A stretch of 59,308 nucleotides of DNA from a virus, in IMG/VR virus record IMGVR_UViG_3300020472_000025, positions 1 through 59,308 of that record; one strand, 5' to 3'. Both the position numbers and the translations under genes were made by a program. The notes under the pieces were generated by a model. That model was not told the DNA's origin and ran no database searches. It saw nothing but the letters and a program-made list of their open reading frames with translations. Below are positions 18,957 through 59,308 of the stretch, piece after piece (the stretch's first letter is position 1; the number at the start of each line of letters is the position of its first letter).

Positions 18957-20306
18957 ATGTTTAATTCAGAATCATTGCAGGAAAAGTGGGAACCCATTCT
19001 AGAGCATTCCGAGATCGATGGGATCAAGGACAAGTATAGAAAGGCCGTTACCTCCGTCCTGTTAGAAAACCAAGAAAGATTCCTCAGGGAGGAGGCTGGC
19101 GTTCTTAACGAAGCCGCTCCTACTATGAGCGCAGGTACTGCTGGATTCAGTGGTTCCTCCACCGCTACAGGTCCTGTTGCTGGTTTCGACCCAGTTTTGA
19201 TTAGTCTAATCAGACGCTCAATGCCTAAGCTTATTGCTTATGACATTGCTGGTGTTCAGCCTATGACTGGTCCTACTGGTTTGATCTTCGCAATGAGATC
19301 ACGCTACGGTACAACACGTACAGGTACTTCCAACGAAGCATTCTTTAACGAAGCAGATACAGAGTTCTCAGCAGAGAACGCTGCAAGCGACCTAGGTAGA
19401 ACTGCACAAGCAGGATCTAACCCAGGACTTCTTAACGCTTCTGGAACCTATAACACTTCAGACGGCATGCCAACGGCAGAGGCTGAAGCATTAGGTGATG
19501 CTGCTGGAAACCAGTTCGCTGAAATGAACTTCAGCATTGAGAAGGTAACAGTGACCGCTAAGTCACGTGCCCTCAAAGCTGAGTACAGTTTAGAATTGGC
19601 TCAAGACCTTAAGGCAGTTCACGGACTAGACGCTGAGTCTGAACTCGCAAACATCCTCTCAACAGAGGTTCTTGCTGAGATCAACCGTGAAGTAGTTAGA
19701 ACTGTTTACAAGATCGCACGTCCAGGCGCACAGAACAACACAGCAACCGCTGGTATCTTTGACCTAGACGTTGACTCCAATGGTAGATGGTCAGTTGAGA
19801 AGTTTAAGGGTCTACTCTTTAACATCGAACGAGACATGAACGCAATCGGGCATGAAACTCGTCGTGGAAAGGGTAACATCTTGATCTGCTCTGCCGACGT
19901 TGCTTCTGCACTATCAATGGCTGGCGTTCTTGATTACACTCCTGCTCTTGCTGGTAACAGCAACTTGCTCCCAGATGACAACAGCAGCACACTTGCTGGA
20001 ACTCTGAACGGACGCATCAAGGTCTATGTTGACCCTTACTCTGCTAACGTAAGTGATCGTCACTTCTACGTTGCTGGATACAAAGGTTCTTCTGCCTATG
20101 ACGCTGGACTGTTTTACTGCCCATACGTTCCACTACAGATGGTTCGTGCCGTTGGTCAGGACACCTTCCAACCAAAAATTGGCTTTAAGACTCGTTATGG
20201 CATGGTTGCCAACCCATTCGCTGAGGGAACTGCTCAGGGAAGTGGTGCTCTTACTGCTAATGCAAACCGTTATTACAGACGTACTCTTGTTGACAACCTT
20301 ATGTAA
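18957..20306 (+). CDS. 23: Major capsid protein gp23
   Basis: 449 aa (T4: 521). The N-terminal 52 residues are a removable delta region ending VLNE|AAPTMSAG, a fit to the gp21 (L/I)-x-E site. Mature capsid starts there, followed by FDPVLISLIRRSMPKLIAYD and GVQPMTGPTGLIFAMRSRYG, the usual cyanophage gp23 blocks. The end MVANPFAEG is also typical. No good Shine-Dalgarno precedes the ATG (only A-rich sequence), which is odd for so abundant a protein. A strong terminator follows 22 bp after the stop. Confidence 0.97.
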   Translation: MFNSESLQEKWEPILEHSEIDGIKDKYRKAVTSVLLENQERFLREEAGVLNEAAPTMSAGTAGFSGSSTATGPVAGFDPVLISLIRRSMPKLIAYDIAGVQPMTGPTGLIFAMRSRYGTTRTGTSNEAFFNEADTEFSAENAASDLGRTAQAGSNPGLLNASGTYNTSDGMPTAEAEALGDAAGNQFAEMNFSIEKVTVTAKSRALKAEYSLELAQDLKAVHGLDAESELANILSTEVLAEINREVVRTVYKIARPGAQNNTATAGIFDLDVDSNGRWSVEKFKGLLFNIERDMNAIGHETRRGKGNILICSADVASALSMAGVLDYTPALAGNSNLLPDDNSSTLAGTLNGRIKVYVDPYSANVSDRHFYVAGYKGSSAYDAGLFYCPYVPLQMVRAVGQDTFQPKIGFKTRYGMVANPFAEGTAQGSGALTANANRYYRRTLVDNLM

Positions 20307-55434: not shown

Positions 55435-56796
55435 ATGTTAGACATTAAGATATCTGCAGAGTTGATGGGGTATTCCCTTGACGAGCAGATGACAATCATG
55501 AAATGTGTAGAGGAAGGCTCTACTCATGACAGTAAGAGATTCCAAGAAACCATTGAGAAGATCACTGTCCTTGTAGACGCATCACCAATTCTTGAGGTTT
55601 TTGAGGGGTATGCAGGTTTCCCTATCGAGAAGGCACTGATTGATAAAAATAAGGGTAGAGCACCTGATGATCGTAATATAGGTAGGGTCATTACACAGGG
55701 TGGTCTCTCACTAGTAGTCACAGGTCGTAAGGCTGATGGACGTTACAACGTTGTAGGTAAGAAAGGAGAGAAGACTGCAAAGCATGCAGAAGATCTAGGT
55801 CTCCAAGTTAAGGAGTCTATTGATATTGAGGATCTTCATCAGTCTATGTTAGAAGCAATGACTGTTACTAATGCTGATAAGAAAGGAAATACTCCAGCGT
55901 GGCAGAACTATAAGAAAGGACTGAAGAATAAGCAAGGTAAGCCAGTGTATAAGGCTGCTGATCATGTTAAGAATGAGGAGTATACTGTTACCAACGCTGA
56001 TAAGAAAGGTAACACTCCTGCATATCAGGCATACAAAGCAGGTAAGAAGAATGCCAAGACAGGCAAACCTCTATACAAGGCTGCTTCCCACATGAAGGAA
56101 GAACAAACTATTGATGACTTTATTTTAGAGTTCATTGATTTAGATGATGATGGAATAGATACCTTAAGTTTTGAGGAACTAGAACAGGTATGTATCGAAG
56201 CATTAGAAGAACTCGAAGGAGATCTTCTTAACGAAGCACTCGAAGCAATAGATGGTATATCACTTCTTACTGAAGCACCATCTAAGCACTCAGCAAATCC
56301 TAATATTGCTGTGCAAGCACCACAGAAGGAGAAACCAGGTAGAGATGCAGGTAAACTTGCGAGAGCAAAGTTATCTAAGCCACAAGCTTCTCGTAAAGAG
56401 AAGGTTAAGGCAGCACTTAAGTCTGCTGGTTCAGCAATCAAGAAGGGTGTGAAGGCTACTGCTAGAGGTGTGGGTAAAGCTGCAGGTCATGCTGCTAACG
56501 CTGCTGAGAAAGGTGCTAGTGCAGTTGGTAAGGTTGCCAAGGAAGTTGGAAAGGGATACTCTGATACTCGTAAGGGTAGATCAGATGAGGGTTCCAGTAC
56601 AACTGATGCTAAGGCACCAGATGAGAGCAGGGGTGGATCGGATAGACCACGCTTGCGTGATAAGATAAAGCGTGGTATAAAGAAAGTCGTTGGTAAGGCT
56701 GCTCGTGCCGTCTCCAGAGGATCAAGGAATGTCGCTAGGAGATTAGGTGAAGAGAAGTATAACTGGCGATCTCAATTGGAGGTCAACAAAGAATGA
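55435..56796 (+). CDS. Basic, histone-H1-like C-terminal protein with tandem repeats
   Basis: 453 aa with AGGAAA before the ATG. The N-terminus (1-125) is globular and mixed. Residues about 143-222 hold two 40-residue repeats (TVTNADKKGNTPAxQxYKxG...GKPxYKAAxH; 55861-56103). An acidic stretch (LDDDGIDTLSFEELEQ) ends LLTE|APSKHSAN, a candidate gp21 site. The last 150 residues are Ala/Lys/Gly-rich (AAGHAANAAEKGASAVGK), like histone H1. If cut there, a basic DNA-binding peptide would be freed in the head. Confidence 0.65.
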   Translation: MLDIKISAELMGYSLDEQMTIMKCVEEGSTHDSKRFQETIEKITVLVDASPILEVFEGYAGFPIEKALIDKNKGRAPDDRNIGRVITQGGLSLVVTGRKADGRYNVVGKKGEKTAKHAEDLGLQVKESIDIEDLHQSMLEAMTVTNADKKGNTPAWQNYKKGLKNKQGKPVYKAADHVKNEEYTVTNADKKGNTPAYQAYKAGKKNAKTGKPLYKAASHMKEEQTIDDFILEFIDLDDDGIDTLSFEELEQVCIEALEELEGDLLNEALEAIDGISLLTEAPSKHSANPNIAVQAPQKEKPGRDAGKLARAKLSKPQASRKEKVKAALKSAGSAIKKGVKATARGVGKAAGHAANAAEKGASAVGKVAKEVGKGYSDTRKGRSDEGSSTTDAKAPDESRGGSDRPRLRDKIKRGIKKVVGKAARAVSRGSRNVARRLGEEKYNWRSQLEVNKE

Positions 56797-57746: not shown

Positions 57747-57754
57747 TATAAATA
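57747..57754 (+). promoter_or_regulatory. T4-type late promoter
   Basis: TATAAATA, perfect consensus, 36 bp before the Ig-like virion gene, with GAGGAGA at 57778-57784 as its ribosome site. Confidence 0.7.
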
Positions 57755-57790: not shown

Positions 57791-58624
57791 ATGTCTGTCG
57801 TAGGAAAACTTGACTCAGCAGCGTTTAGCAATACTATTGGTGTCACAAATGGTGACGCAACCGTATCTAAAAATGCTGGTGATACTGTAGTTGTAGGTGA
57901 CGTGCTTGACATCAGTGGCGTAAGCTACATTGTCAAACAAGTAACCAGCACCACTGCAATCGAACTGCATAAGAATTATGCAGGATCAACCGCAACCGTT
58001 GCTGCTGCGGCAGTGCTACGAAGAACTCCACCTAAAGCAGTTGCAGAGTATGTAATTGTTGGTGGCGATAGTAATTCCTATGATTTAGTTTTTGTAGACA
58101 CAACTGAGGACAGCATTGCGTCTAACAAGAGTCGTGGTATTTCTGGACCTGGTTGGTGGCAGTATAGAACATATACTTCACACAACGGTGACGAAAAGCA
58201 TAAGGCAGAGTGTTTAGTACCTATGAAGGTTGCTGCTGGTACTTCTGGAGACTTTGGTGACGATACCCTCGCTGCTGATGTACTTGAGACAATCACAGTT
58301 GGTACACAACCTGCTAACTCCACCTCATCTTCTGGTGCTGGAACATTCGTTGCTGCATTTACAGTCGATCAGTCTGGTACTAAGCAGTACAAGTGGCAGA
58401 GACAGACAGCTACCGCTACTACTCGTTGGGTAGACATCGTTGGTGGTGCTAATGGTCTTGACACTGGTATCACATATGCAGACTTCACTACAGCAACACT
58501 TGCTTACAGTGGACTTGCTGGTGATACATTAGATGGTTACAAGTATCGCTGTGTGCTTAACACAAGCAAGGGTGCTGAAACTAAGAGAACAAACGGAGCT
58601 GCCACACTTACATTCGGTAGCTAA
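57791..58624 (+). CDS. Virion protein with C-terminal Ig-like domain
   Basis: 277 aa behind a perfect late promoter. Residues 1-165 form a beta-rich part (NTIGVTNGDATVSKNAGDTV, GPGWWQYRTYTSHNGDEKHK). Residues about 180-277 look like an immunoglobulin-type domain: AAFTVDQSGTKQYKWQRQTA with the core Trp, and DTLDGYKYRCVLNTS with the Tyr-x-Cys of the F strand. T4 Hoc and many phage decoration proteins use such domains. Surface decoration of the head or tail is a reasonable but unproven role. Confidence 0.7.
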   Translation: MSVVGKLDSAAFSNTIGVTNGDATVSKNAGDTVVVGDVLDISGVSYIVKQVTSTTAIELHKNYAGSTATVAAAAVLRRTPPKAVAEYVIVGGDSNSYDLVFVDTTEDSIASNKSRGISGPGWWQYRTYTSHNGDEKHKAECLVPMKVAAGTSGDFGDDTLAADVLETITVGTQPANSTSSSGAGTFVAAFTVDQSGTKQYKWQRQTATATTRWVDIVGGANGLDTGITYADFTTATLAYSGLAGDTLDGYKYRCVLNTSKGAETKRTNGAATLTFGS

Positions 58625-58641
58625 ACTGAACCTTTTATATA

Positions 58642-59007
58642 ATGTATTTTGATGAGTTAACAGAACACAATCATGTTCTCTTTGCAATAAAGCACTACGA
58701 AAACCCTCACTCGGTAACCGTAGATGACTTTATGGAAGATATGAAGAAGTTCAAATACCTTAAGAGATTATTCAAGAGGTATTTGAACTCTAATGTTCTT
58801 AGAACTAATTTAATATTAAATCATCTAATCATATTGTTTAATGTATTTGGTGAGGGTACCACACCTCTACTCATGTATAAACTTGAGAGAGAATACTGGT
58901 CTATCCTAAAGACATTTCTCATATATCTAAATCGTTACGACGGTTATGGTGTTCTTGAGGATGTTGATATTGACGATGATGTAAAAGATATCCTAAACGA
59001 ATTGTGA
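58642..59007 (+). CDS. Conserved helical cyanophage protein
   Basis: 121 aa. Mostly helical with FDELTEHNHVLFAIKHYENP at the start, KKFKYLKRLFKRYLNS, and LMYKLEREYWSILKTFLIYL. I recall it as widespread near structural genes of T4-like marine phages, without assigned function. Its stop overlaps the next GTG start (GTGA). Confidence 0.65.
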   Translation: MYFDELTEHNHVLFAIKHYENPHSVTVDDFMEDMKKFKYLKRLFKRYLNSNVLRTNLILNHLIILFNVFGEGTTPLLMYKLEREYWSILKTFLIYLNRYDGYGVLEDVDIDDDVKDILNEL

Positions 59008-59308
59008 TTAACGAAGACGCACCAACAATGAGCGCAGGTACAGGAGGATTCAGTGGATCTTCTAATGCCAGTGGTCCTGTGGCGGGTTTTGATCCTATGT
59101 TAGGTTCCAATAAGGAAAAGAAACCTAAACTGCAAAGAAGGAAACCGAAGAAGCGTAAGTATACAGTAAAGGAAGACGTTTATAGTAAAGAGAAAGACCA
59201 AAGTAAAAGTCATTACTTACCATATCTAATATGTTATGATGATGCACAGGAGTATGTGCTCTATGGTAAGTCAGAAGCAGAAATTAAAGTACAGTTGAGA
59301 AAGATATA
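59004..59308 (+). CDS. Partial ORF carrying a copy of the gp23 maturation-site segment
   Basis: GTG 59004, open to the window edge (101 codons seen). Residues 1-33 copy gp23 residues 49-81 with 27 of 33 identical, starting V-I-N-E|D-A-P-T-M-S-A-G in place of V-L-N-E|A-A-P-T-M-S-A-G. The capsid-matching part ends at FDPML. The rest is unrelated: a Lys/Arg stretch (KPKLQRRKPKKRK) and a small domain (SHYLPYLICYDDAQEYVLYG). It may be a minor head protein cut by gp21 or bound where mature gp23 N-termini bind. The C-terminus is missing. Confidence 0.65.
   Translation, partial: MINEDAPTMSAGTGGFSGSSNASGPVAGFDPMLGSNKEKKPKLQRRKPKKRKYTVKEDVYSKEKDQSKSHYLPYLICYDDAQEYVLYGKSEAEIKVQLRKI

Follow-up and report, generated by a model that had tools for sequence, protein, structure and literature searches.

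The last open reading frame (ORF) of the virus sequence analysed here, a linear IMG/VR fragment of 59,308 bases (the window), opens with a copy of the N-fist of the phage's own major capsid protein, gp23, preceded by the predicted cut site of the prohead protease gp21. We put at about one in two the probability that this ORF, at position 59004, is the cyanophage counterpart of T4 gp61.1 and encodes an N-fist mimic that is packaged in the prohead and docks into the fist pockets of gp23; its targeting, packaging, cleavage, docking site and function are the parts of this reading that we infer. The features concerned are:

59004..59308, + strand: gp61.1-like N-fist-copy protein (PHROG_696 / T4-GC 426), cut short where the contig stops; about 135 residues when complete.
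59004..59015, + strand: MINE, predicted prohead-protease (gp21) propeptide, with a predicted cut after E4 (INE/D), the equivalent of gp23 LNE/A by alignment with T4 gp23 E65.
59016..59102, + strand: gp23 N-fist copy (DAPTMSAGTGGFSGSSNASGPVAGFDPML), by sequence match.
59103..59213, + strand: basic linker, predicted disordered, with a net charge of about +10 in the L006 homologue.
59214..59308, + strand: start of a C-terminal beta-beta-alpha-beta-alpha domain, cut off; predicted local distance difference test score about 90 in full-length L006.
18957..20306, + strand: gp23 major capsid protein (Pfam PF07068, E 1.8e-144).
19101..19199, + strand: matching segment of gp23, by alignment: the last four propeptide residues, the cut site and the N-fist.

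Residues 1-33 of the ORF (59004-59102) and gp23 residues 49-81 (19101-19199) are identical at 27 of 33 positions without a gap. Among all window ORFs the runner-up 33-residue stretch scores 10/33, and 2000 shuffles of the segment reached at most 11/33 against gp23; BLASTP of the segment against the window ORFs gave an E value of about 9e-15. Meaningful similarity to gp23 ends at residue 33 and is followed by the basic stretch (59103..59213) and then the small domain. Thus the match described in a preliminary description of this DNA is confirmed, as are its statements that the two proteins have nothing in common after the segment and that the segment is joined to a basic part. No Pfam (PF07068) match to the HK97-fold body of gp23 was found in the window ORF, and the absent capsid fold together with a conserved separate locus rules out a misread gp23 fragment. 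The start codon is GTG and overlaps the stop of the upstream DUF7207 gene, while the 3' end is open; a relative that is 98% identical to the window ORF (L006) has 135 residues, and relatives span 125-290 residues. AlphaFold2 left the N-fist-like part disordered and folded only the C-terminal beta-beta-alpha-beta-alpha domain confidently. Pfam and the PDB sequences held no match to this domain, comparison with PDB folds gave no confident one, and BFVD returned mainly its own family.

Alignment with T4 gp23 showed that the copied stretch begins four residues before the gp21 cut (LTE/A in T4, LNE/A here) and stops where the capsid fold starts. The N-fist is a 25-residue element in T4, directly after the E65 cut. 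It comprises residues 66-91 of T4 gp23 and contacts four subunits; with expansion it becomes ordered at the outer surface, and in the five portal-facing subunits it is disordered (PMC9958956, PMC7136217). Judged by this alignment, the copy consists of the gp21 cut site and the entire N-fist of the major capsid protein, and is no generic tag. The window protein agrees with the N-fist of gp23* in sequence and in position after the cut, but carries it detached from the HK97-fold capsid protein. Within gp23 the fist is one of the more variable regions (identity 0.52 vs 0.73 for the body).

A search with the T4 gp23 fist returned 2009 places in 1453 records, with a second place per genome in hundreds of T4-like genomes. 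In T4, Bp7, Abraxas and Aes508 this second place is gene 61.1, beside the primase gene 61; the cyanophage counterpart also lies near the gene 61 primase, with one or two genes between them in some phages. T4 gp61.1 (NP_049649, 54 residues) consists of MKTFKEFIKE followed by DMVAGDSGGNPENISIGTTSGAVVNKGPEQIPKKKKEESKEKEE, and its predicted mature part reads DMVAGD...TSGAV...KKKK. The first ten residues match the capsid-targeting sequence of IPII and IPIII (MKTYQEFIAE) at 7 of 10 positions, and the first ten of IPI likewise at 7 of 10; by this resemblance MKTFKEFIKE is a canonical capsid-targeting sequence, followed by a gp21-type site, IKE/D. The remainder aligns with the T4 gp23 fist with a score of 82, against a maximum of 39 in 5000 shuffles, and the PDB sequence matches of gp61.1 were T4 gp23 entries only, best at residues 58-94. 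Present in about 1400 records, gp61.1 figures in a 2006 list of conserved genes for which no function had been identified (PMC1524935); beyond that listing, openly searchable papers (as distinct from supplements and preprints) yielded genome tables only. In Abraxas gp61.1 (L333) a domain of ~105 residues comes first, and the fist copy follows LFE/D close to the C-terminus. A protein of the Methylophilales phage Melnitz (L101:2861-3472), beside DUF7207, resembles the Abraxas N-terminal domain by eye, and no fist was detected in it.

T4 gp61.1 and the window protein are alike in lying just before primase gene 61, in carrying a copy of their own gp23 N-fist after a gp21-type xE site, and in having a charged, lysine-containing tail. 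They differ in that gp61.1 has 54 residues, a ten-residue capsid-targeting sequence and a fist from another sequence class, whereas the window protein opens with MINE/D and has no targeting sequence of the MKTFKEFIKE type. Furthermore, the profile match of the window ORF is restricted to PHROG_696, whereas gp61.1 proteins match PHROG_1823/2086 and belong to T4-GC 1491, labelled 'non-cyanophages only'. Because the profile families differ, we call the cyanophage gene a gp61.1 counterpart rather than a proven orthologue, an equation based on locus, architecture and the fist copy. T4 IPI, IPII and IPIII resemble gp61.1-type proteins in being small and in having a gp21 site near the N-terminus, and they have the targeting peptide in common with T4 gp61.1; however, no N-fist copy is apparent at the start of their mature parts, and in the window ORF the predicted cut is preceded by MINE alone.

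The window ORF matched PHROG_696 ('major head protein', equal to T4-GC 426) at E 2.8e-30 over residues 2-101 in a profile search and is a direct member of this family, whose misleading name is inherited from the gp23-like N-terminus. RefSeq has taken over the name 'major head protein' although the Gp23 Pfam model gives no match, and for many such small proteins in RefSeq/GenBank the fist copy is the sole reason for their annotation as a major head or major capsid protein. With the window ORF as query, tblastn found 327 phage records, and there are many further members in IMG/VR. What follows the fist copy varies: the beta-beta-alpha-beta-alpha domain in the window type, a DGR-K-AR helical part in the P-HM2 and S-B43 types, a basic tail and nothing else in S-SCSM1 (61 residues), and a PHROG_727 part in MA10. 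By these comparisons the fist copy persists while mutually unrelated C-terminal parts vary. In many members an (I/L/V)xE site directly precedes the fist, and others begin with Met at the fist, so that in either case the fist can sit at or near the mature N-terminus. The cleavage site is the dispensable part of the segment and the fist the part that persists, which weakens the earlier suggestion of a tag purely for gp21 processing.

These observations also bear on the possibility, which we consider unlikely, that the segment is a prohead entry or processing signal read by the scaffold or gp21, and that the basic C-terminus is the working part of an ordinary head protein, internal or ejected. 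Such a signal would agree with the capsid-targeting sequence that opens T4 gp61.1, with the N-terminal helix (in sequence unlike that of T4 gp61.1) and VNE/E before the fist in S-B43-type members, with the likeness of INE/D to a gp21 site, and with the small, basic nature of T4 internal proteins (PMC9026906). However, the T4 targeting signal is a propeptide, whereas the part copied from gp23 is mature, post-cleavage sequence; the S-SM1, S-TIM4, P-HM2 and S-SCSM1 types keep the fist with no obvious cut site; and an entry signal would have no need to track variants of the phage's own gp23.

We compared codon use between the fist copy and gp23 in 26 phages with both genes. At the 476 aligned identical residues the codon is the same in 214 cases, compared to 211.4 +/- 10.6 expected from codon usage. 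In the window pair, 15 of the 27 identical residues use different codons and there are 19 third-position differences; codon agreement is 11 vs 9.7 expected under random codon choice. Codon sharing at chance level indicates that protein identity is under selection and that the copy is old rather than a recent conversion; recent gene conversion is ruled out by the randomness of the synonymous sites. Synonymous sites are saturated, and the two old copies are held alike at the protein level by selection, as the preliminary description had proposed. It had also raised the possibility that the segment is a common linker. Fist-like segments occur at no more than two places per genome (gp23 and the gp61.1-like protein) in the 27 genomes tested, which rules out a common linker of many proteins.

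The fist copy also varies together with gp23. P-HM2 has TNVGPINTQTT in both proteins and its P-HM1-like relative (L146/G009) TNVGPINTPTT in both; QTTGYT is found in both proteins of P-SSM4, and SGGF..SPAAGPTAG is common to both in S-B43. Distances among fist copies correlated with those among the phages' own gp23 fists when gp23 body and DUF7207 were controlled for (partial Mantel r=0.47, P=0.0002, n=23), a P value that is indicative, as the permutations leave some shared ancestry. A class-level matrix including T4-type phages gave a trace of 1373 vs a permutation maximum of 1174. Thus, at the level of sequence, the fist copy follows the gp23 fist of its own phage in many lineages, with exceptions. 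It is very improbable, in our judgement, that the segment is an old duplication with no gp23-related role, a glycine/serine-rich stretch serving as a mere flexible N-terminal spacer. The low-complexity composition in cyanophages would suit a spacer, as would the other sequence that some relatives have in its place, but protein identity has been maintained despite saturated synonymous sites, and the NVGPINTxTT and GDxGxNxxNI..TSGAV types match their own gp23 class and are no generic spacers.

Evidence from virions comes from S-SCSM1, whose orf97 (61 residues, fist copy and basic tail only) is labelled virion protein in its record. The record gives the same label to gp21, gp22, gp23, the tail tube and others, and the label is carried by proteins detected by mass spectrometry, of which the S-SCSM1 paper reports 45. 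Nearly the whole block of S-SCSM1 genes before gene 61 (genes 89-97, L345) is labelled virion protein, which suggests a head/virion gene cluster inside the replication region.

We propose that a gp61.1-like protein would enter the prohead core, with a capsid-targeting sequence as the means of entry in T4 and certain members. Cleavage by gp21 at (I/L/V)xE, or a Met at the fist, would then make the fist the N-terminus inside the prohead, alongside the gp23* N-termini. During expansion the mimic would become ordered like the gp23 fist and dock between capsomers at sites that bind fists; pockets with no fist partner, e.g. beside the vertices or the portal, are the most plausible. Docking to the capsid lattice, one of the roles suggested in the preliminary description, is thus a sensible idea. 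Once docked, it would anchor its basic part to the shell and might thereby strengthen special sites or tether DNA.

Several observations weigh against this proposal. The gp23 fist of S-SM1, S-CAM22, P-SSM7 and MbCM1 is of the QTTGYT type, while their fist copy still has the GTGGFSG form, so that these phages retain an older-looking copy; MA10 likewise has a poor rank. A few relatives (S-SZBM1, S-WAM1, S-H38) have another N-terminus (APTNSVGTGAETALPP...) on the same C-terminal domain, and P-SSM2 and Melnitz have no fist-copy protein. Convergent copying by the cyanophage and T4 genes is possible, no exact match to the late-promoter-like motif TATAAATA was found in the 5 kb surrounding T4 61.1, and no structure shows an extra fist. 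Finally, the S-SZBM1 member, which has the alternative N-terminus, is not among the 30 virion proteins detected in that phage, although its neighbours 136, 139 and 140 are. This last result would suit a non-virion regulator, a fist mimic that, in the prohead or elsewhere in the cell, would compete with gp23 N-termini (or bind their chaperone or partner), time expansion and be absent from the finished head. A mimic of a mobile assembly element would be a natural competitor and the gene adjoins replication genes, but the virion label of S-SCSM1 orf97, the shortest member, and the capsid-targeting sequence of T4 gp61.1 make such a regulator quite unlikely in our view. The alternative N-terminus, INEDAPTNSVGTGAETALPPSHEPPG, replaces the fist copy on the same C-terminal domain in L075, L080-L085, S-SZBM1, S-WAM1 and S-H38; no source for it turned up in the genomes tested.

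In most cyanophages examined, the family locus lies between DUF7207 and a small gene that is followed by the gene 61 primase and nrdA. In the window DUF7207 is directly upstream, and the downstream order (T4-GC 201/primase) is taken from relatives (P-RSM6, P-TIM40 and others). The neighbouring features are:

58642..59007, + strand: DUF7207 protein (PF23837, T4-GC 198), conserved upstream neighbour, by profile match.
57791..58624, + strand: PHROG_613 'head protein'; virions of S-SZBM1 contained its equivalent, SZBM1_136.
57747..57754, + strand: TATAAATA, a motif resembling a late promoter, 44 nt ahead of the PHROG_613 gene; the evidence for it is weak.

The exact motif is not enriched in the window (6 found vs 4 expected); all six lie on the + strand, and two of them precede gp22 and the PHROG_613 gene by 44-47 nt. 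A gp23 query found no second capsid paralogue (gp24) in the cyanophage genomes examined, a search that a divergent one could escape. Elsewhere in the window, the protein encoded at 55435-56796 contains an internal direct repeat, two imperfect copies of VTNADKKGNTPAxQxYKxGxKNxxxGKPxYKAAxHxKxEE.

Within the literature searchable here, the conserved gene families were already known and the N-fist copy is new. The fist copy accounts for the misnaming of these genes as major capsid proteins by annotation pipelines, and it brings together families filed as cyanophage-only and non-cyanophage-only. T4 serves as the model for large phage heads, and gp61.1 is among its conserved genes with no known function; the capsid-targeting sequence and N-fist copy give gp61.1 a concrete candidate role in head maturation. 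More tentatively, and at somewhat less than even odds, gp61.1 and its cyanophage counterparts may form a class, found throughout the T4 superfamily, of packaged, protease-activated N-fist mimics that fill fist sites and co-evolve with gp23. If so, these phages would use a separate protein to mimic a locking element of the capsid.
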